Made by a program: the position numbers and the translations under genes
The notes under the pieces: generated by a model
The model's database searches: none
Told to the model about the DNA's origin: nothing
Seen by the model: the letters and a program-made list of their open reading frames with translations, nothing else
Assembly: GCF_002954445.1 (NCBI RefSeq)
Contig: NZ_MQWA01000001.1
Coordinates: 1,599,954 to 1,649,528, forward strand
Direction: 5' to 3'
Source of the DNA: Rubritalea profundi
GTDB taxonomy: Bacteria > Verrucomicrobiota > Verrucomicrobiia > Verrucomicrobiales > Akkermansiaceae
Length of the DNA stretch: 49,575 nucleotides
Shown: piece by piece, positions 5,513 to 39,086 of the stretch
How positions within the stretch are numbered: position 1 is the first letter of the stretch
Layout: every line of letters begins with the position of its first letter

Positions 5513-5910
5513 AACCCGGACCTCGGATCGTTCGCGTGTTTCGCGGTGGTGGAAACTCGCTTCAATATGCTGGCTTAGAGCAAAGAGGCTGGAAGCACTC
5601 TTCTACGTGCCGCGCTGGTCAAGTCTACCAAGCTGGGGCTTGGCGCTCACAGGGGGGGGCTCACCGCTTCACCGAACTAGCGATCATTCGTGCGATTAGT
5701 GAAATTCGTGGTAGAAGTCGCTGCGCTTCAATTAGGAATTACGAGTTACTAGTTTTTTCTTTCGTATTGTTCGCGTGTTTCGCGGTAGAAACGCTTCATC
5801 TGGCTGGTCAGGAAAACGGGAAACGCACCCTTGAAAATAGGGTGAGTATAAATCTGCAGCTCCAGATTTTAGTTCACAGCTTAGAAGATTCCCGCTATGT
5901 TGCTTAGTCC
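5513..5910. repeat. Intergenic block of dispersed repeats, families A and B
   Basis: Two family B copies (5529-5575 and 5767-5810) share the pattern TTCGCGTGTTTCGCGGT, then GGAAAC or AGAAAC, then TTCA and a TGCTGG-like end. One family A copy is at 5708-5750. A 140-codon open frame crosses this block, but it is made of repeat sequence and I do not count it as a gene. Confidence 0.7.
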
Positions 5911-6678
5911 ATGAAAGCCTTTTTAAGCATAATGGTGAGTTTCACGCTCACATTCGCAGCCCGTGCGGAAGAGATCATTGTCGCCACAGATGAATGGGAG
6001 GGCTACACATCGAAGGATGAGCGTGGCTATTACATCGACCTACTGAAAGCCATTTTCCCAGCTCCTGCGTACTCACTCAAGTTTGAATTCGTCCCCTTCA
6101 AGCGCTCACTACTGATGTTGAAGTCTGGTAAAGCGGACATCCTATTGGGTGCATATCCCGAGGACGTCCCGGCGGTCTATCTTGCCAAATACCCCACCAA
6201 TACAGACTCTATCAGCGCCGTTCTCAATAAAGATCTGGCTGCCAACTGGAAAGGGCTCGAGTCACTAACGAACAAAGTTGTGGTCGCCAAAAATGCCTAC
6301 GCCTTCGATCGCTACTTCAAAACCCCCATCAAATATTCAGAAAAGAACAACCTAAATTCTATGCTTCTGATGCTTAAAAAAGGTCGAGTCGATGCGGTTC
6401 TTGATTTTAAAAAAGACATCCAGTTCCTATGGAAATCACTTGAGCTCGAGCAAAACTTTGTCATCATCGACGGCGTCATTCTTGAGAATGTTTATACAGG
6501 GTTTGCTCTCAACAAGTCTGAGCTCAAAGAGCACTATGAGAAAGCTTTTCACAATCTCTATGAAAGCGGTGAAGTGCAGAAAATGATGCTCAAACACAAG
6601 CTCTCGGACGCAAGAGCACCAGTAATCAAGGTCGACGGAGAGACCCAACCACCAAAAATAGACGGCCTCAAAAAGTAA
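5911..6678 (+). CDS. Periplasmic solute-binding-like protein (SBP_bac_3 fold)
   Basis: This encodes 255 residues. A Sec signal peptide (MKAFLSIMVSFTLTFAARAE) precedes a sequence typical of family 3 periplasmic binding domains. It begins EEIIVATDEWEGYTSKDERG, has the FKRSLLMLKSGKADILLG segment (residues about 68-87), and a second half ending in a helix with FHNLYESGEVQKMMLKH. Such proteins bind amino acids or other small polar ligands. No permease or ATPase gene lies nearby, so it may act as an orphan binding protein or serve a transporter elsewhere. It precedes the sugar-acid gene run by about 60 bases. Co-transcription is possible but unproven. Confidence 0.75.
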   Translation: MKAFLSIMVSFTLTFAARAEEIIVATDEWEGYTSKDERGYYIDLLKAIFPAPAYSLKFEFVPFKRSLLMLKSGKADILLGAYPEDVPAVYLAKYPTNTDSISAVLNKDLAANWKGLESLTNKVVVAKNAYAFDRYFKTPIKYSEKNNLNSMLLMLKKGRVDAVLDFKKDIQFLWKSLELEQNFVIIDGVILENVYTGFALNKSELKEHYEKAFHNLYESGEVQKMMLKHKLSDARAPVIKVDGETQPPKIDGLKK

Positions 6679-30794: not shown

Positions 30795-30875
30795 TTCCCA
30801 ACCAGAAAACTCAAAAATTAGCCGGCTTTTGAAAATGAAAATGAATTTTCTCCCGTGGTTCGCGTCTATTCAACT

Positions 30876-31694
30876 ATGAAGACTCCATTCCTGCTCGGTG
30901 CGCTTGGCGCCCTTACCCTCCTGCTACTATCATCCTGCGTCGATCCCAATTATTACGGCGAATCCGTTCATTACGGCAGCGCAAGCTATACCACTCTCCC
31001 CAACGGCCACAACACAGTCTACGTCAGCGGGACGCCATACTACCACCACGGAAGCCAATGGTACCGTCGCAGTAGCGGTCGCTACATCAGCTGCTCACGC
31101 CCCCACGGATACCACGGGTCAATCGGCCATAGTGGTCACCACAGCAGCCACGGCATCAGTCGCCTCCCATACGGATACCGCAGCGTCACCGTCGGTAGCA
31201 GCAGCTACTACAACCACGGCAGCACCTGGTACCGCAAGAGCGGCAGCCGCTATGTGACTTGCCAAAGGCCATCAGGATACTCTAGTCACAACCAGCATAA
31301 GAGCCACGGATACTCAAGCAGCAGCAAACACCACAGGTCCGACTCATACCGTCGACCCAGCAGTCACAGCAGTCACAGCAGTCACAGCAGTCAGAGTAGC
31401 CATAGTAGCCATAGTAGCCATAGTAGCCGCTCCAGCCATGGAACCCACGACAGACAACGCAATAGCTCTGATAGAAAAAAACACGGCAAAGCTACCAAGA
31501 AACACAGCGATCATTCTCAAAGTGTTTCCCCCAAGCGTGGATCATCAACATACGTTTCCACTCGCACCAAGCCGTCCACCAAAACCCGGACTAAAAGCTC
31601 AAGAGTACCCGAGTATAAAAAGAAAAAGCATACCATCTCCAAACAATTGAAGTCCAAGTCGAGCTCCGACAAAGGCAAACGTCGCCTAAGGTAA
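30876..31694 (+). CDS. Lipoprotein with duplicated WYR domain and Ser/His repeats
   Basis: This encodes 272 residues. The lipobox LLSSC places the lipidated Cys at 21. Two copies of a roughly 40-residue module follow: LPNGHNTVYVSGTPYYHHGS with QWYRRSSGRYISCSRP, and LPYGYRSVTVGSSSYYNHGS with TWYRKSGSRYVTCQRP. This is the DUF6515-like YYxHGxxWYR pattern. Next comes a Ser/His tract with SSH triplets made of 9-bp tandem repeats (about 31360-31440). The tail is very basic (KKKKHTISKQLKSKSSSDKG). Expected on the periplasmic face of the outer membrane. The basic tail could bind peptidoglycan or polyanions, but that is speculative. Confidence 0.78.
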   Translation: MKTPFLLGALGALTLLLLSSCVDPNYYGESVHYGSASYTTLPNGHNTVYVSGTPYYHHGSQWYRRSSGRYISCSRPHGYHGSIGHSGHHSSHGISRLPYGYRSVTVGSSSYYNHGSTWYRKSGSRYVTCQRPSGYSSHNQHKSHGYSSSSKHHRSDSYRRPSSHSSHSSHSSQSSHSSHSSHSSRSSHGTHDRQRNSSDRKKHGKATKKHSDHSQSVSPKRGSSTYVSTRTKPSTKTRTKSSRVPEYKKKKHTISKQLKSKSSSDKGKRRLR

Positions 31695-33496: not shown

Positions 33497-34021
33497 GTGA
33501 CTCTCGATAAGTTCATCAGCCTAGCCCAACCACTCTCGCTCACCGCGCGCGCCTGTATCTCCCTGCACATTACCGAGGCCTACTTCCGCAAGATTGGCCT
33601 CAAGCATGCTTTGGTCGATGAGTTTTTTGACCACCTGTGGGACCATCCACTGCAGGGTGAACCAAAAGAATTTTCAGCCTGGGAGGCGAAACGTGGCGAT
33701 CTCGTCGACTTCGGCCTCACCGATGATCTCCCCGACGACCTAGACGAAATAATGCCGCAGCTACCAATCGATGAGGCAGAACTCTTCGCAGTCTGCGAGG
33801 CTCCGGTGGAAATCCTCTGGGGGAATTTCTTCCGCACTGCCGATGACGAAACCTCCTTCGACTACCTCAAATTTTCGCTCAACCTAGCCGAACGTGAGAG
33901 CCTCATTTTCCCAAAAATCGCTCTCTATCAAGATTCCCTATTCGCAGAAAATAATGGCTGGGGCAAACCAATCAGCCAGCCCACCCGCGATGCTTGGCGA
34001 GCAGAAGGAAAAGTCCACTGA
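33497..34021 (+). CDS. Cytoplasmic protein of unknown function
   Basis: This encodes 174 residues from a GTG at 33497; no ATG is available near the start of similarity-like composition. The protein is acidic and soluble, with no signal peptide or membrane segment. It has Trp-rich and Asp-rich stretches: VDEFFDHLWDHP, LTDDLPDDLDEIMP, VEILWGNFFRTADDETSFDY and GWGKPISQPTRDAW. It may be an immunity- or SMI1-like small protein by composition, but I see no defining motif. It is bounded by repeats on both sides. Confidence 0.65.
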   Translation: MTLDKFISLAQPLSLTARACISLHITEAYFRKIGLKHALVDEFFDHLWDHPLQGEPKEFSAWEAKRGDLVDFGLTDDLPDDLDEIMPQLPIDEAELFAVCEAPVEILWGNFFRTADDETSFDYLKFSLNLAERESLIFPKIALYQDSLFAENNGWGKPISQPTRDAWRAEGKVH

Positions 34022-34225: not shown

Positions 34226-35344
34226 TTAGGCTCCAGAGCATTTCCTGAATTTTGAAAAAGTCAGGAATCCTAACAAAACTAATGGGATGCTACAGAGCCA
34301 GAGCAGCGTGCTCGACGGCTTATCAACCAATTCAGTACTAGATTGCTCCGAGGCGGCACTCAGGAATGCTCTCACCTTGCTGATGTGCTCGATACTCATT
34401 TCCTGCTGTTGCTGGGTAAATACGCTACTTACGGCGCCCGCTGATTGCCATTGTCGCCACGCTTGTAAGTCATCGATCCTCTTTGAGAGCTGCTCGGGGA
34501 AGCGCTTTAGCGCGACCGCATACATCTCTGCAATGGCTGGCTGCTTATCCGTGTGAATGGTGGCGTACGCTGACAGGGCGTCCAGCACCGCACTGACCTC
34601 ATTCTCTTCATGAACTAAGTCCTCGAAGTAATCCGTACGGATCTGTGGCAGAGCAGCAGCATCAGTCTCTAGATAGGCTAGAGCCCAAGCAGCAGCTTGC
34701 AGCGAGATGCTATAGACTTCGTTGAGTTTGTAGCGTTTTCCTATCAGATCTTGATCGTTCTTCTCGCCACTCTGAGCGAGTAATAAAATGTAAAGCCCGT
34801 GCCACTCTAGCATCCTTGAATCCCCAAGAAACCGTCTTACCTCAGAAAAATCCAGTACCGGACCCAGCGTGCGGATGACCGCGTAAGGGGCACGCGCTAC
34901 CTCCAAGTGAGCCATCCGCTGGAGCTGGAGGTCTGCTGAGTTCAGATATTCGACAAAAAATTGTGCTCGCTGTGTACGATCTTCAGCCCAAGAATTCGCT
35001 AGCAAAAGTGGTAGTACTGCTTCCATTTCTTTTGTCTGAACCGCAAGGTTCTGCCAATCGCCCGAGCTCCATCCGCACAGCAGAGAACGCTCAGGGTAAA
35101 CATCTAACATCCTACGTGTGCTACTAGGAAGAAAGAGCTCTAGCTCGGGAACGTCAGGCGAGGCACGTAAGATCCGAATGGTCGACAAACTATAAGCTTT
35201 GTCTGGATTCTCCCTCGCTAACACCAAACTCTCCGATGCATTGATTCGATCCAGCAGGCTGTCTTTCGGATAGGGTAAACAAATCTGACAAGCGATTGCC
35301 GAGCACCAGCTCAGCAATACTGCCGCTAGAAGATAAGCTCTCAT
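34226..35344 (-). CDS. Secreted alpha-helical protein with C-terminal membrane anchor
   Basis: This encodes 372 residues. A signal peptide (MRAYLLAAVLLSWCSAIACQ) is followed by a CxxC (CQIC) and a long helical region with TPR/HEAT-like character (LQRMAHLEVARAPYAVIRTL; AVLDALSAYATIHTDKQPAI). A C-terminal membrane segment (LLWLCSIPLVLLGFLTF) ends in a basic tail. The start codon overlaps the stop of the upstream HupE-like gene by 4 bases, so it is translationally coupled. It is the last gene of the DUF3604/PPIase/HupE unit. I do not recognise the family. The topology suggests a periplasmic domain held at the inner membrane. Confidence 0.75.
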   Translation of the reverse strand: MRAYLLAAVLLSWCSAIACQICLPYPKDSLLDRINASESLVLARENPDKAYSLSTIRILRASPDVPELELFLPSSTRRMLDVYPERSLLCGWSSGDWQNLAVQTKEMEAVLPLLLANSWAEDRTQRAQFFVEYLNSADLQLQRMAHLEVARAPYAVIRTLGPVLDFSEVRRFLGDSRMLEWHGLYILLLAQSGEKNDQDLIGKRYKLNEVYSISLQAAAWALAYLETDAAALPQIRTDYFEDLVHEENEVSAVLDALSAYATIHTDKQPAIAEMYAVALKRFPEQLSKRIDDLQAWRQWQSAGAVSSVFTQQQQEMSIEHISKVRAFLSAASEQSSTELVDKPSSTLLWLCSIPLVLLGFLTFSKFRKCSGA

Positions 35345-36333
35345 TGCCAGAATGCTAGAACCCGCTCAACCACCCAAAATACAGCCACTGAGCCGATCGC
35401 ATAGGGAGCTACTAACCGTGACCATTGCGGTAGCTTCAGAGGGACACGTTTCACGGTTTGGTACACCAGCACCAGAGTCAAAACAAAGGCTAACTGACCG
35501 AGTTCGACTCCTACGTTGAAGCTCAATAGGACCATTGGTATTGCGCTCTGCGGCAGACCAATTTCGCTCAAGGCTCCAGCAAACCCGAATCCATGGAGTA
35601 GCCCAAAACTGAAAGCCACGATCCAAGGTGCCCGCTGAGTAATCCCTGGATTTCCGCGGTACGAGCGGACTATTTCAGCGGCGACAAAGACAATGCTCAG
35701 AGCTATAATCGCCTCGACTGGTGCACCAGGAACAGAGACGAAACCTAAGCTGGCAAGGCCTAGTGTGATACTGTGGGCAATAGTGAAAGCTGTGATAGTT
35801 CCGAACAATAACTTCCAGCTGCGCACCACTAACAGCAGGGCTAGTACAAAGAGCAGGTGATCAATTCCCAAAAGAATATGCTCCACACCAAGAACAAGAT
35901 AAGTCCAGAGGACTTCCCATTGGCTCGGCTCAGTCGCAAAAATATAGCTCGCGCTTTCGGGAGAAATTCGAGTGGTTAGATGGTTTCCGTTGGCGTACTC
36001 GACTCGGCAGAGAACATCCGTCATCGTTTTATCAAGTCCATCAATGTGTAGCTCAGTCCCTGCTAACCCACCCTCACGCTGCACCCGTAGCCGTTGCACA
36101 TGTGCCCCATTGAGGAAACCCGACACCGGTTCGCCTATTGTTTTCACATCGTCAGAAAAGCGTAAATATAAGCCTAATCGCTGGTCCGCACCGCGCGCAG
36201 GAACCTTCCACAATACATCAAATTTCCCTGCTCCAGTCTCCTTAAGCTCCAAGTATGCTGGACGCATCTCATGCGCTTGGAGACTACCCAGCTGCCCAAA
36301 AATGAAGCAACAAAGAAGCAACCATAGTCTCAT
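35341..36333 (-). CDS. HupE/UreJ-like membrane protein
   Basis: This encodes 330 residues. A signal peptide ends before HEMRPAYLELKE, and residues about 20-150 form an extracytoplasmic domain. The C-terminal half has about six membrane helices with the HupE/UreJ_2 motif GVEHILLGIDHLLF, then TAFTIAHSITLGLA and GFGFAGALSEIGL. HupE/UreJ proteins are linked to nickel or cobalt handling, and His and Asp in HxLLGIDH could form a metal path. This long form with a periplasmic N-terminal domain is distinct from classic HupE. It overlaps both neighbours by 4 bases. The metal is not determined. Confidence 0.85.
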   Translation of the reverse strand: MRLWLLLCCFIFGQLGSLQAHEMRPAYLELKETGAGKFDVLWKVPARGADQRLGLYLRFSDDVKTIGEPVSGFLNGAHVQRLRVQREGGLAGTELHIDGLDKTMTDVLCRVEYANGNHLTTRISPESASYIFATEPSQWEVLWTYLVLGVEHILLGIDHLLFVLALLLVVRSWKLLFGTITAFTIAHSITLGLASLGFVSVPGAPVEAIIALSIVFVAAEIVRSYRGNPGITQRAPWIVAFSFGLLHGFGFAGALSEIGLPQSAIPMVLLSFNVGVELGQLAFVLTLVLVYQTVKRVPLKLPQWSRLVAPYAIGSVAVFWVVERVLAFWQ

Positions 36334-37169
36334 GCGTCGGTGTCCTCCTCAGGCCACTCAATCACGATGTCGTATTGTTCAACAAATTTTTCATTGAAGG
36401 CGCTGCGCTTCTCTACTTTTTTGGCATGGAGCCATTCGCGTTCGACCCTCTGACGCACATCAACTAGCGCAGGTAGCGATCCCGCAGTGCGCTCAGACAA
36501 ACGGACAAAGTGGACACCAAGTCCAGAGCGCAATGGTTCGCTCCAGTCAGCTAACACCAGTCCATCGAGCTTTTTAGCAAAGCCAGCACCATAATCGCGA
36601 TCCACCTTCCACGCGGGCGTTTGCATATTTTTTGGGGGGAGGAAGTACGAATCACTCGTAACGATTTCTCCAGCCTTAAGCTTAGCCCTGACACTAGCCA
36701 GATAACCCTCTAGATCGTCTCTATGACGCTGAGGGTTGATGAATATTTGCTCAAAACTATAGAGCCCGTCTTTGCTGAACTTTTCTGGGTGTGCATGGAG
36801 GAATTTCGACAGATCCTCGTCATTGGCATCAGTACCTAACATCACATCATCGGTGAGAAATTCTAACTTCTGACGCATTCGGCGGCGGATGATGGTATCG
36901 TCTTGGTCGATTCCCATCGCTACTGCCTGGCGGTAGTAGATCTCTTCCAGCACATAGTCATCGATCAATGACTTTAGTTCATCCTGACTCGGCGGGTGCT
37001 GCCAAGTTTTCTCATAAATGCTGATAAACTGGGCAATTCGCCCTTCAGTGATGACAATTTTTTCACGATCGCCATCTTGGTTAGCCTCTGGATTTACCCA
37101 GCCATAAAGAGCAAACAGCCCCGCTCCTATCAACATGAAATGAAGCAATGGCTCCTTCAGAAATTTCAT
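36330..37169 (-). CDS. Membrane-anchored peptidyl-prolyl isomerase-like protein (parvulin/SurA type)
   Basis: This encodes 279 residues. An N-terminal membrane anchor (PLLHFMLIGAGLFALYGWV) is followed by a SurA-like helical chaperone segment (DDYVLEEIYYRQAVAMGIDQ, then RRRMRQKLEFLTDD). A parvulin-like region follows, with FSFEQIF-type YSFEQIFINPQ and ADWSEPLRSGLGVHFVRLSE. It would assist folding of exported proteins on the periplasmic side. It starts 6 bases after the DUF3604 gene and overlaps the HupE-like gene by 4 bases. It probably serves the products of this operon in particular. Confidence 0.85.
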   Translation of the reverse strand: MKFLKEPLLHFMLIGAGLFALYGWVNPEANQDGDREKIVITEGRIAQFISIYEKTWQHPPSQDELKSLIDDYVLEEIYYRQAVAMGIDQDDTIIRRRMRQKLEFLTDDVMLGTDANDEDLSKFLHAHPEKFSKDGLYSFEQIFINPQRHRDDLEGYLASVRAKLKAGEIVTSDSYFLPPKNMQTPAWKVDRDYGAGFAKKLDGLVLADWSEPLRSGLGVHFVRLSERTAGSLPALVDVRQRVEREWLHAKKVEKRSAFNEKFVEQYDIVIEWPEEDTDA

Positions 37170-37175
37170 CCTTGG

Positions 37176-39086
37176 TTACTTACTAGGTGAGTACCAAATC
37201 GGAGATGTGTACGCGCGTTCTTGGCCGATGAGTTGGGCATTTTTTGGCAACTCAACACCGAAGCGAAGCTTGTCGTATACAACCCAGCGAGGAGTCGGGA
37301 TTTCTAACACGCGCACATAGTAGAAGGATGATTCAGTGGCATCGAAATCTGGATCCGTCCAGACAGTGCCTAGATCAGTAGAGCCAATGGTGTTAGACCA
37401 AGTTGCCTTTTCTAAGTCCACTGTGTTTCCAACAGCAGCCTTACAGACGCCGTTAGAGTCAATTTTTCGGTCACCGGAGACGGCGATGTCGTAGACCTTT
37501 TCGTGAAGCTTGCTATCAGCATCTATCCAGCCTTTAACGATTTGTACACGGTCGAGGTTTGCTCCAACAGCATCGCGCAAAGCGGACACCATGAATGTAG
37601 GAGCCTTTTTAGCGTCAGCTTGAGCTTTCAGATCTCCGCCCATTGGCACACCTTTTTGGTAGCCCAGAGTCGTGGAGTTTGGCGCGTTTAGATCAGCGTC
37701 TGTGTAGTCCCAGCCACCGAAGAAGCGTACCTTCATACGTGGTCCAGTGGTTCCGTATGTTTCCCGACGAATGAATGCGTCAAAGAGTGCTGCGCGGGTA
37801 TTGTCCTCTGCCCAGACACCTGTGTATCCAGAAGCCACCAATGTGTGGCCTTCGATCTTGCCTAGTTTTGATTCGATGAATGGATGGTTCACCCGACCTG
37901 CCGATGGTTCAGCAGAAGCAGACTTTCCGAAGAAGTTGTCTTCATCCGCAGTTGCTAAAGTAGTGTGACTATCAGTCGCACCACCGAATCCAAACTTGTA
38001 GGGGTTCACCCCAAATTTCTTTTCAAGGAGAAGTCCTTGCTTGAGAGCTTCACGTGCGTATTCGCCTTTGAGCATCTCTGGCTTTTTCAGCTGGGTGAGA
38101 TCGAGGTTACCCACGTCCCAGTTTTCATAATCAGCAAACGGATCATTTGGCGAAAGCACAGGATGCGCCTCGCCATCACCTTTGATCTGAGTGATTTCGT
38201 ATTGCGGTTCCCACTTCGCGCGGAGCTTCACGTAGTTGGCATCCACTTTGCCACCAGCATAGGTGTCTTCTGTTGGGAACATCCATCCGTTAGACAGGTT
38301 GCCATTGTGTGCTAGACAAAATGCCTTGCCACCAGTTTTGCTCTCGTACTCTTCCAACCATTTATAAAGATCTAATGGATCCGTACTGCCCATTGGTGGC
38401 TGTGTTGTTGGCGGCACTACCTGCATCGCTTTGTCTCCATTATCTCGGAGAATCACGTTGCGGTGGAGGTTGAACCCCTTCGGCACTGAGGTCCACTCGA
38501 AGCCGATAAAGGCGGTGAACTTCCCTGGATCATTGTGGGTTTCTGCTGCTCCAACAATTTTAGACCAAACGCTTTTGAATTCCGGAGCACCGGGGCTGTA
38601 CGCTTTGACAAATTCTGGTGGCAGTTTCATTTGAGCAAAATGGGTGATCAAATCAAAGGCTGCAACTCCAGCAGCGTCTCCCCCTTTTTTGTAACCGTCA
38701 TACCATTCTTTGCCCTTTGCATTGGCTAAAATGTGAGGCTTACCCGCCTGTAGGTCGGTTGCAAACCCCATCAAATCTGTATGGTCACTCACTACTAACC
38801 AGTCCAAAGGACGAGCAAGTTTTACAGGAACTCCAGTCGCTGACGTAAGCTTCTCACCTTTTGCAAAACGATAAGCTTCCTCCACACCCAGTGTGTTGCC
38901 AAACAACCCAGCATCCAGCGAAAGAGCTGTGTGCACGTGGGTGTCACCCCAGTAGACTTCGCTCGGGTACGTCTTCCCGACATAGGGTGAAAAGTTATCT
39001 TTCTGTTCTTGGGCCGTGACAGCCTCGGCATGGAGCGCTGAGACCGATGCCATCGAAATGATGGTTGTAAGGAATGGGTATTTCAT
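37176..39086 (-). CDS. DUF3604 family secreted protein (PHP-like fold)
   Basis: This encodes 636 residues from ATG 39086, which begins a signal peptide ([20 protein letters not shown]). A longer start at 39116 is possible. The sequence has the DUF3604 metal motif [16 protein letters not shown], then [14 protein letters not shown] and [15 protein letters not shown] with [10 protein letters not shown]. Later it has [28 protein letters not shown] and a C-terminal beta domain ([11 protein letters not shown]-type ending, here YTSPIWYSP). The His/Asp pattern suggests a PHP-type metallohydrolase. Substrate is unknown. It is first in the four-gene unit followed by the PPIase-like and HupE-like genes. 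Confidence 0.88.

Follow-up and report, generated by a model that had tools for sequence, protein, structure and literature searches.

A membrane-anchored foldase relative and a long HupE protein as a candidate maturation pair for exported DUF3604 proteins in Rubritalea profundi and other bacteria

We analysed a stretch of 49,575 nucleotides from Rubritalea profundi (contig NZ_MQWA01000001.1, positions 1,599,954 to 1,649,528), referred to as the window in the following, and focused on a four-gene unit on its minus strand (39086-34226), which encodes a DUF3604 protein, a relative of peptidyl-prolyl isomerases (PPIase), a long HupE/UreJ_2 protein and a helical protein. An earlier note on this DNA had described four closely spaced genes whose products are all exported or membrane-bound. 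Its coordinates are correct, with a gap of 6 bases followed by two overlaps of 4 bases each, and the N-termini of all four products, judged by eye, indeed resemble Sec signals or membrane anchors. In reading order, the genes are:

37176..39086, minus strand: DUF3604 gene, 636 amino acids, PF12228 at 793.9 bits; in the predicted model, a PHP part (about residues 42-450) precedes a C-terminal beta-sandwich (about 450-636)
36330..37169, minus strand: PPIase gene, SurA/PrsA-like (parvulin-type), 279 amino acids, PF13145 at 33.6 bits (cut-off 27)
35341..36333, minus strand: long HupE/UreJ_2 gene, 330 amino acids, PF13795 at 164.3 bits (cut-off 24.5)
34226..35344, minus strand: fourth gene, helical protein, 372 amino acids, no Pfam family over cut-off

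The first three of these genes recur together in many phyla, so that their arrangement is not a matter of chance. This association is real and widely conserved, and it joins known families with one family for which there is no Pfam model; it is undescribed in the searches we made, in which none of the papers listed connects DUF3604, PPIase and HupE. In samples of 240 alphaproteobacterial and 203 gammaproteobacterial genomes (443 in total; thresholds E<=1e-50 for DUF3604 and E<=1e-60 for long HupE), DUF3604 was found in 25 and 15 genomes, and long HupE in 21 and 11, respectively. Every genome with a long HupE also carries DUF3604 (21 of 21, Fisher 1.6e-26; 11 of 11, Fisher 3.0e-15; 32 of 32 taken together, Fisher 1.3e-41), where the Fisher values ignore shared ancestry and many of the genomes are incomplete. 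Two of these genomes (G194, G197) are sample centres picked for carrying DUF3604; leaving them out reduces the count to 30 genomes with long HupE, every one of which carries DUF3604. The DUF3604 matches that back two gammaproteobacterial genomes (G476, G489) are partial, at about E 1e-51 to 1e-55. DUF3604 lies within 1.6 kb of HupE in 27 of the 32 genomes (20/21 alphaproteobacterial, 7/11 gammaproteobacterial).

In a sample of 194 genomes from the window's own phylum, long DUF3604 matches are found in three genomes and long HupE in four, with both in two (Fisher 0.00095). The three DUF3604 genomes are those with matches of at least 387 bits among 22 at E<=1e-3 (21 over the Pfam cut-off), where the best matches of the other genomes are partial and do not exceed 44.6 bits; the four HupE genomes are those with nearly full-length matches of at least 397 bits among 18 at E<=1e-20. 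The PPIase matches 72 genomes at E<=1e-10, and the four at 132 bits or more are the same four as for HupE. A scan of genome contigs with the DUF3604 alignment gave at least 596 relatives, and among the best 80 loci, many of which end at contig edges, long HupE is present in 35 and the PPIase in 40, including all 35 with HupE. According to their record titles, these 80 loci come from Alpha-, Beta-, Gamma- and Deltaproteobacteria, and from Acidobacteria, Gemmatimonadetes, Myxococcota, Krumholzibacteriia and Verrucomicrobia, as well as from genera including Carboxylicivirga and Robiginitalea, both of which we take to be Bacteroidota. There are also 79 plasmid records that match DUF3604, and in 77 of these the match covers 80% or more of the query. 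The earlier note had placed such genes together in marine bacteria and proposed a survey of genomes for all four; the co-occurrence is there, but it is not only marine, as plasmids of Rhizobium and Sinorhizobium attest, and it holds for the first three genes, whereas the fourth is not universal.

Within this association, PPIase and HupE form a tight core, and DUF3604 is often present in several copies and often encoded away from the pair. Among 66 long HupE genes, from loci gathered via DUF3604, via HupE or via the fourth protein, 64 have a same-strand PPIase gene no more than 400 bases away, and for the remaining two the distance stays within 520 (G177, 493 bases; L098, 515 bases). The G177 locus (L031), the second unit of the window's phylum, carries between PPIase and HupE an AhpD-like gene of the CMD family (PF02627, with a CxxC motif; 5864-6598, minus strand) that overlaps HupE by 4 bases. 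A long HupE was found at E<=2.3e-92 in all 19 DUF3604-bearing genomes searched, 14 of which had been retrieved via a DUF3604 locus without HupE, and in 18 stretches around the HupE matches, the PPIase adjoins HupE in 18 and DUF3604 falls within the stretch in six. In ten genomes, DUF3604 and long HupE copies stand at 17:1, 9:2, 8:2, 6:1, 4:1, 2:1, 2:2 and, in three, 1:1. The ratio of 17:1 is that of the marine HTCC2148 (G197, the genome of L049; 4.3 Mb), and it does not support the earlier note's view of the PPIase as a folding helper dedicated to one enzyme.

Sequence distances across 46 three-gene loci point in the same direction: the correlation is highest for PPIase and HupE (0.61), followed by DUF3604 and PPIase (0.39) and by DUF3604 and HupE (0.35), and a Mantel test puts all three above chance (p 0.001 or less), which argues for a tight pair with more exchangeable enzymes. 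For the window itself, the DUF3604 protein is nearest to an alphaproteobacterial metagenome-assembled genome (MAG; 73%) and to Colwellia (69.5%), whereas the closest relatives of HupE and PPIase are MAGs of Verrucomicrobia or Prosthecobacter, if only by small margins (55.1 vs 52.3% for the first other in HupE, 39.9 vs 37.6% in PPIase). These are identities, taken without a tree, and they hint at a resident pair whose enzyme was exchanged.

Two kinds of exception in the window's phylum also touch on this core. The genomes G035 and G159, from a single genus, keep the pair without DUF3604; of the 293 profile positions, only the first 135-137 find a strong match in their PPIase-like protein, in which Pfam detects no rotamase domain. 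Conversely, among the 194 genomes, G186 alone combines a long DUF3604 match with the absence of the pair, and its DUF3604 gene has an internal stop and lacks the C-terminal domain. The PPIase-like genes that lack the parvulin domain and accompany long HupE where DUF3604 is absent lie at L147:6595-8188 and L148:6947-8538.

Literature on DUF3604 is almost nil; in the papers searched, the word turned up in a single one, in a mutant table. An AlphaFold2 (AF2) model built from 42 sequences has a mean predicted local distance difference test score (pLDDT) of 87.2 and a predicted template modelling score (pTM) of 0.88. By VIA, it is similar to TM0559 (2anu; Z 16.6, 213 aligned residues, root mean square deviation 3.6), BVU_3505 (3e38; Z 16.2, 264 aligned) and PsfC (7rty; Z 12.8, 214 aligned), with unrelated structures scoring only about 7 Z. 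Foldseek gave no match at E<=0.001 with the same model, and searches of PDB sequences with the single sequence and with the profile gave no useful match. The three structures are PHP-family predicted phosphoesterases that have the PHP fold in common with DUF3604, and 3e38 is, by its title, likewise a two-domain protein; unlike them, DUF3604 is exported and longer, at identities of 14-17%. Ten residues (H50, H52, D58, D101, H102, E197, H208, H260, D372 and H374) are invariant in 42/42 sequences, and we take H50/H52, D101/H102, H260 and D372/H374 to be the HxH, DH, H and DxH metal-ligand motifs of PHP proteins. Given the fold found by VIA and these ten ligand-type residues, DUF3604 has a PHP fold, with a metal site that looks complete, and is probably an exported metallohydrolase; of the earlier note's PHP-like metallohydrolase, the PHP-like part is thus borne out and the hydrolase part is probable. 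Membership in the CehA/McbA metallohydrolases (NCBIfam NF038032) was considered and rejected (12.3 bits, E 0.083, against a cut-off of 80 bits). Nothing in the analysis points to a phosphorus role for the unit.

HupE/UreJ proteins are regarded as nickel importers. In the long form, about 120 residues at the N-terminus make up a periplasmic domain, and the membrane permease domain that follows contains an HX5DH motif, which we take to carry the metal connection in HupE/UreJ_2. A20-H21, H152, D158 and H159 are invariant in 13/13 aligned sequences, and HX5DH is present in all 65 full-length members, the window's included. With cleavage sites read directly from the sequence, the likely mature protein starts with histidine in 60/65, after alanine in 49 (by pattern), as in the window, and after serine or glycine in 11 (by eye). 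These features agree with the metal link that the earlier note had seen in this protein. The histidine-first architecture resembles that of the anglerases Ang-1 and Ang-2 fused to HupE/UreJ-2, which the main text of the anglerase paper likewise describes with a signal peptide, a mature N-terminal His domain and a PF13795 permease (PMC12537917). That text sets the anglerase linker at residues 176-184, in contrast to the N-terminal domain of about 120 residues here, and reports Ang-1 in bacteria, particularly Pseudomonadota; for one domain, RbAng-1a, it gives dissociation constants for Cu (73.6 nM) and Ni (220 nM), and it proposes metal fishing for uptake (PMC12537917, 2025). It names DUF4198, IndA and PfkB as neighbours, with proteins of unknown function the commonest; the words ‘DUF3604’ and ‘isomerase’ are absent from it, a check that did not extend to the neighbourhood figure (Fig. 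4), which could show DUF3604 (PMC12537917). Our HupE family profile (A3) matched no PDB chain at E<=10, and hence not the Ang-1 domain 9GCE.

The PPIase has an N-terminal membrane anchor, judged by eye. Its single sequence found no match in the PDB, whereas the family profile (A4) succeeded, matching SurA at 8.2e-10 and HP_0175 at 2.2e-9. The match covers the parvulin region and, for HP_0175, runs from the N-terminal part onward; unlike SurA, PrsA and HP_0175, the protein combines a single parvulin domain with the membrane anchor, and its gene is paired with that of a permease. It further differs at the column that HMMER aligns with the first (strand-1) parvulin histidine of SurA, which presumably has a catalytic role: the window protein has glutamine there, and a simple pattern applied to 71 relatives reads glutamine in 41 and histidine in 14, leaving 16 unread. 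This makes isomerase activity doubtful, and we regard the protein as a parvulin-type foldase relative for which chaperone action seems likelier than catalysis.

The fourth protein represents an undescribed family without a Pfam model. It has a CxxC motif at its likely mature N-terminus, followed by an N-terminal domain modelled with low confidence and an alpha-solenoid; both cysteines are kept in 10/11 members of the alignment (A5), L121 retaining the first only, and just the window protein and L110 show, by eye, a hydrophobic segment at the C-terminus. Its model has a mean pLDDT of 69.9 and no Foldseek match at E<=0.001, and in the comparison with HEAT/ARM solenoids its structural neighbours are helical repeats with a best Z of 9.0, below the level at which the tool is telling for such repeats. 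The N-terminal domain is reminiscent of NTR/TIMP-like OB folds, a likeness that we do not claim at the model confidence of about 40-65 there.

Homologs of this protein were found at E 3e-57 to 3e-38 in L110, L109 and L101, plus others. In Rhizobium tibeticum (L101) and Mesorhizobium muleiense (L109), the homolog sits between HupE and DUF3604, and in Rhizobium sp. Pop5 between DUF3604 and PPIase; in Shimia (L175) it follows HupE directly, and in Haloferula rosea (L110) it is about 6.5 kb away from DUF3604. In the phylum sample, the protein is confined to the two genomes with the whole unit, the window's own and G177, which has a short form. Altogether, ten long-HupE loci have it within 10 kb, of which four (L123, L125, L127, L128) were retrieved via the fourth protein and six (the window, L031, L101, L109, L110, L175) by other routes. 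Fragmented genes occur in L128, where DUF3604 and the fourth gene are both broken into two pieces, and in L126, where HupE is split. Seven other long-HupE loci (L085, L092, L093, L120, L036, L034, L182) have a second family of exported fourth genes with a CGY motif, in several cases between HupE and DUF3604; the L085 member has no Pfam match. The fourth protein is therefore optional, present in only some units and replaced in others by a different fourth gene. On plasmid stretches L121, L122 and L124, it occurs without the unit; in L121 (2214-8020) and L122 (2200-8005), its relatives close a set of MacB/FtsX-type exporter genes that includes DUF3299, and an arylsulfatase gene lies close by.

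Around the unit in the window, an M42 peptidase gene (PF05343) on the same strand ends 152 bases before DUF3604, and the next long frame downstream (33497-34021) is convergent. Between 33900 and 39500, a promoter scan gave two promoter-like sites, both on the plus strand, where shuffles gave 5.0, and a terminator scan gave nine sites where shuffles gave 4.8, of which one on the minus strand (34274-34260) lies within the 3' end of the fourth gene; these scans carry no weight in our interpretation. Elsewhere in the window, an open frame on the plus strand (30855-31694) encodes a lipoprotein-like product very rich in Ser, His and Tyr, with a Lys-rich tail. In 91 clustered DUF3604 loci (single linkage, any distance within the locus, family names taken from one member each), sulfatases recur in 12, outer-membrane-barrel-like proteins (judged by eye, without Pfam match) in 13, DUF1254 in six and FGE in five, none of them being near universal. 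At L123 (6333-14375, Rhodobacteraceae SC52), a shortened DUF3604 protein of 206 residues is followed by two CobW-type GTPases and DUF1826, suggesting a metal-starvation context.

The reading that we favor, at a probability of roughly 0.45, is that PPIase and long HupE work as a pair in the membrane to mature the exported DUF3604 hydrolases, a function suggested by gene association. DUF3604 would leave the cytoplasm unfolded and metal-free, and the membrane-anchored, SurA-like PPIase would, as its family suggests, hold and fold it at the periplasmic side. The N-terminal His domain of HupE may catch a transition metal in the periplasm, for which anglerase domains of the same architecture provide a precedent, and the membrane part would move or store this metal and so supply the PHP site, the direction of transport being part of the proposal. 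Copy numbers suggest that a single pair could serve many DUF3604 enzymes, and the CxxC-solenoid protein, where present, might act as an accessory scaffold or as a thiol- or metal-binding partner. One foldase-permease pair alongside many enzymes fits such a shared service. Co-occurrence across genomes, HupE encoded in trans, the copy numbers and the adjacency of PPIase and HupE all count in its favor, as do the loss of the parvulin domain where DUF3604 is absent (G035, G159) and the broken DUF3604 gene where the pair is absent (G186).

Several observations weigh against this reading. At the threshold chosen for the class samples, long HupE is missing from eight of the 40 genomes with DUF3604. 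A second search of these eight found one beside DUF3604 in G476 at 1.9e-57, just below the threshold, a fragment at a contig edge in G544, partial matches in G386 and G414, and nothing in G264, G336, G462 and G629. In the window's phylum, DUF3604 accompanies only two of the four long HupE proteins, and the parvulin loss and the broken gene of G186 each come from one lineage. At the level of residues, the first parvulin histidine is mostly glutamine, and the likely mature N-terminus of HupE is Asp, not His, in 5/65. Moreover, nickel import by HupE/UreJ would lower, not raise, the metal content of the periplasm, and the excess of enzyme copies fits a shared transporter equally well, so that by itself it does not separate maturation from uptake.

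Metal uptake is accordingly the main rival, and we consider it somewhat unlikely. DUF3604 would then degrade external organic matter, the His-domain HupE would import a transition metal that is released or needed in the cytoplasm, and the PPIase would only keep HupE or its domain folded or active. Such a scheme agrees with PPIase and HupE being the tightest pair and with the retention of the pair without DUF3604 in G035 and G159. A PPIase that acts on a metal permease is also known from Helicobacter pylori; this PPIase, SlyD, is of the FKBP type. The H. pylori study describes its activation of the nickel permease NiuD (PMC7840056), where Niu is an ABC transporter, unlike HupE, and SlyD is cytoplasmic, unlike the membrane-anchored PPIase. 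The main text of the anglerase paper further holds HupE/UreJ proteins to import nickel and proposes capture and uptake for its nanomolar Cu- and Ni-binding domain RbAng-1a (PMC12537917). By itself, however, scavenging leaves unexplained why DUF3604 is present in 32/32 long-HupE genomes of the alphaproteobacterial and gammaproteobacterial samples, and why the parvulin domain is absent where DUF3604 is absent, the latter in one lineage.

Less probable still is a system for metal handling or detoxification, in which control over periplasmic metal falls to the pair together with the CxxC protein, and DUF3604 is a co-regulated, stress-related hydrolase that they do not mature. The CobW-type GTPases and DUF1826 next to the SC52 unit would suit it, as would a P-type ATPase and a cupredoxin near the Pseudoalteromonas unit and the MacB/FtsX-type ABC exporter with DUF3299 beside relatives of the CxxC protein in M382 and Alisedimentitalea, a set reminiscent of what we take to be the make-up of the Pseudomonas zinc-starvation operon PA4063-PA4066. 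Each such neighbor, however, comes from the reading of one or two loci rather than from a count across loci, and sulfatases, barrel-like proteins and DUF1254 are what recurs near DUF3604 in the clustered loci. Least probable is a horizontal cassette of functionally uncoupled genes, which the plasmid records and the sparse long DUF3604 matches in the window's phylum (3/194) would fit. Against it, order and orientation vary (DUF-PPI-HUP, PPI-HUP-X-DUF, convergent) with the partners constant, and co-presence persists where the genes lie far apart.

To our knowledge, no maturation machine has been described for exported PHP enzymes. In a more specific and more tentative form of the maturation reading, PPIase and HupE would constitute a metallation platform, foldase and periplasmic metal catcher in one, that inserts metal into a large and uncharacterised class of exported PHP hydrolases with as many as 17 members in one genome, with the CxxC-solenoid protein as an optional scaffold. 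FGE is one maturation factor for many paralogous exported sulfatases, and the platform might, in this tentative form, do for PHP hydrolases what FGE does for them; the likeness is one of how the systems work, between unrelated proteins, and sulfatases or FGE do lie near some DUF3604 genes.

DUF3604 enzymes have been little studied, yet they reach 17 copies in a marine bacterium and have matches in 79 plasmid records. If the pair is their common source of maturation or metal, a single deletion would switch off the whole class in a strain, and both the metal and the substrate would become identifiable. Long HupE would, if this is true, gain a likely client, and metal delivery by such proteins would be separated from the import of nickel for hydrogenase and urease.

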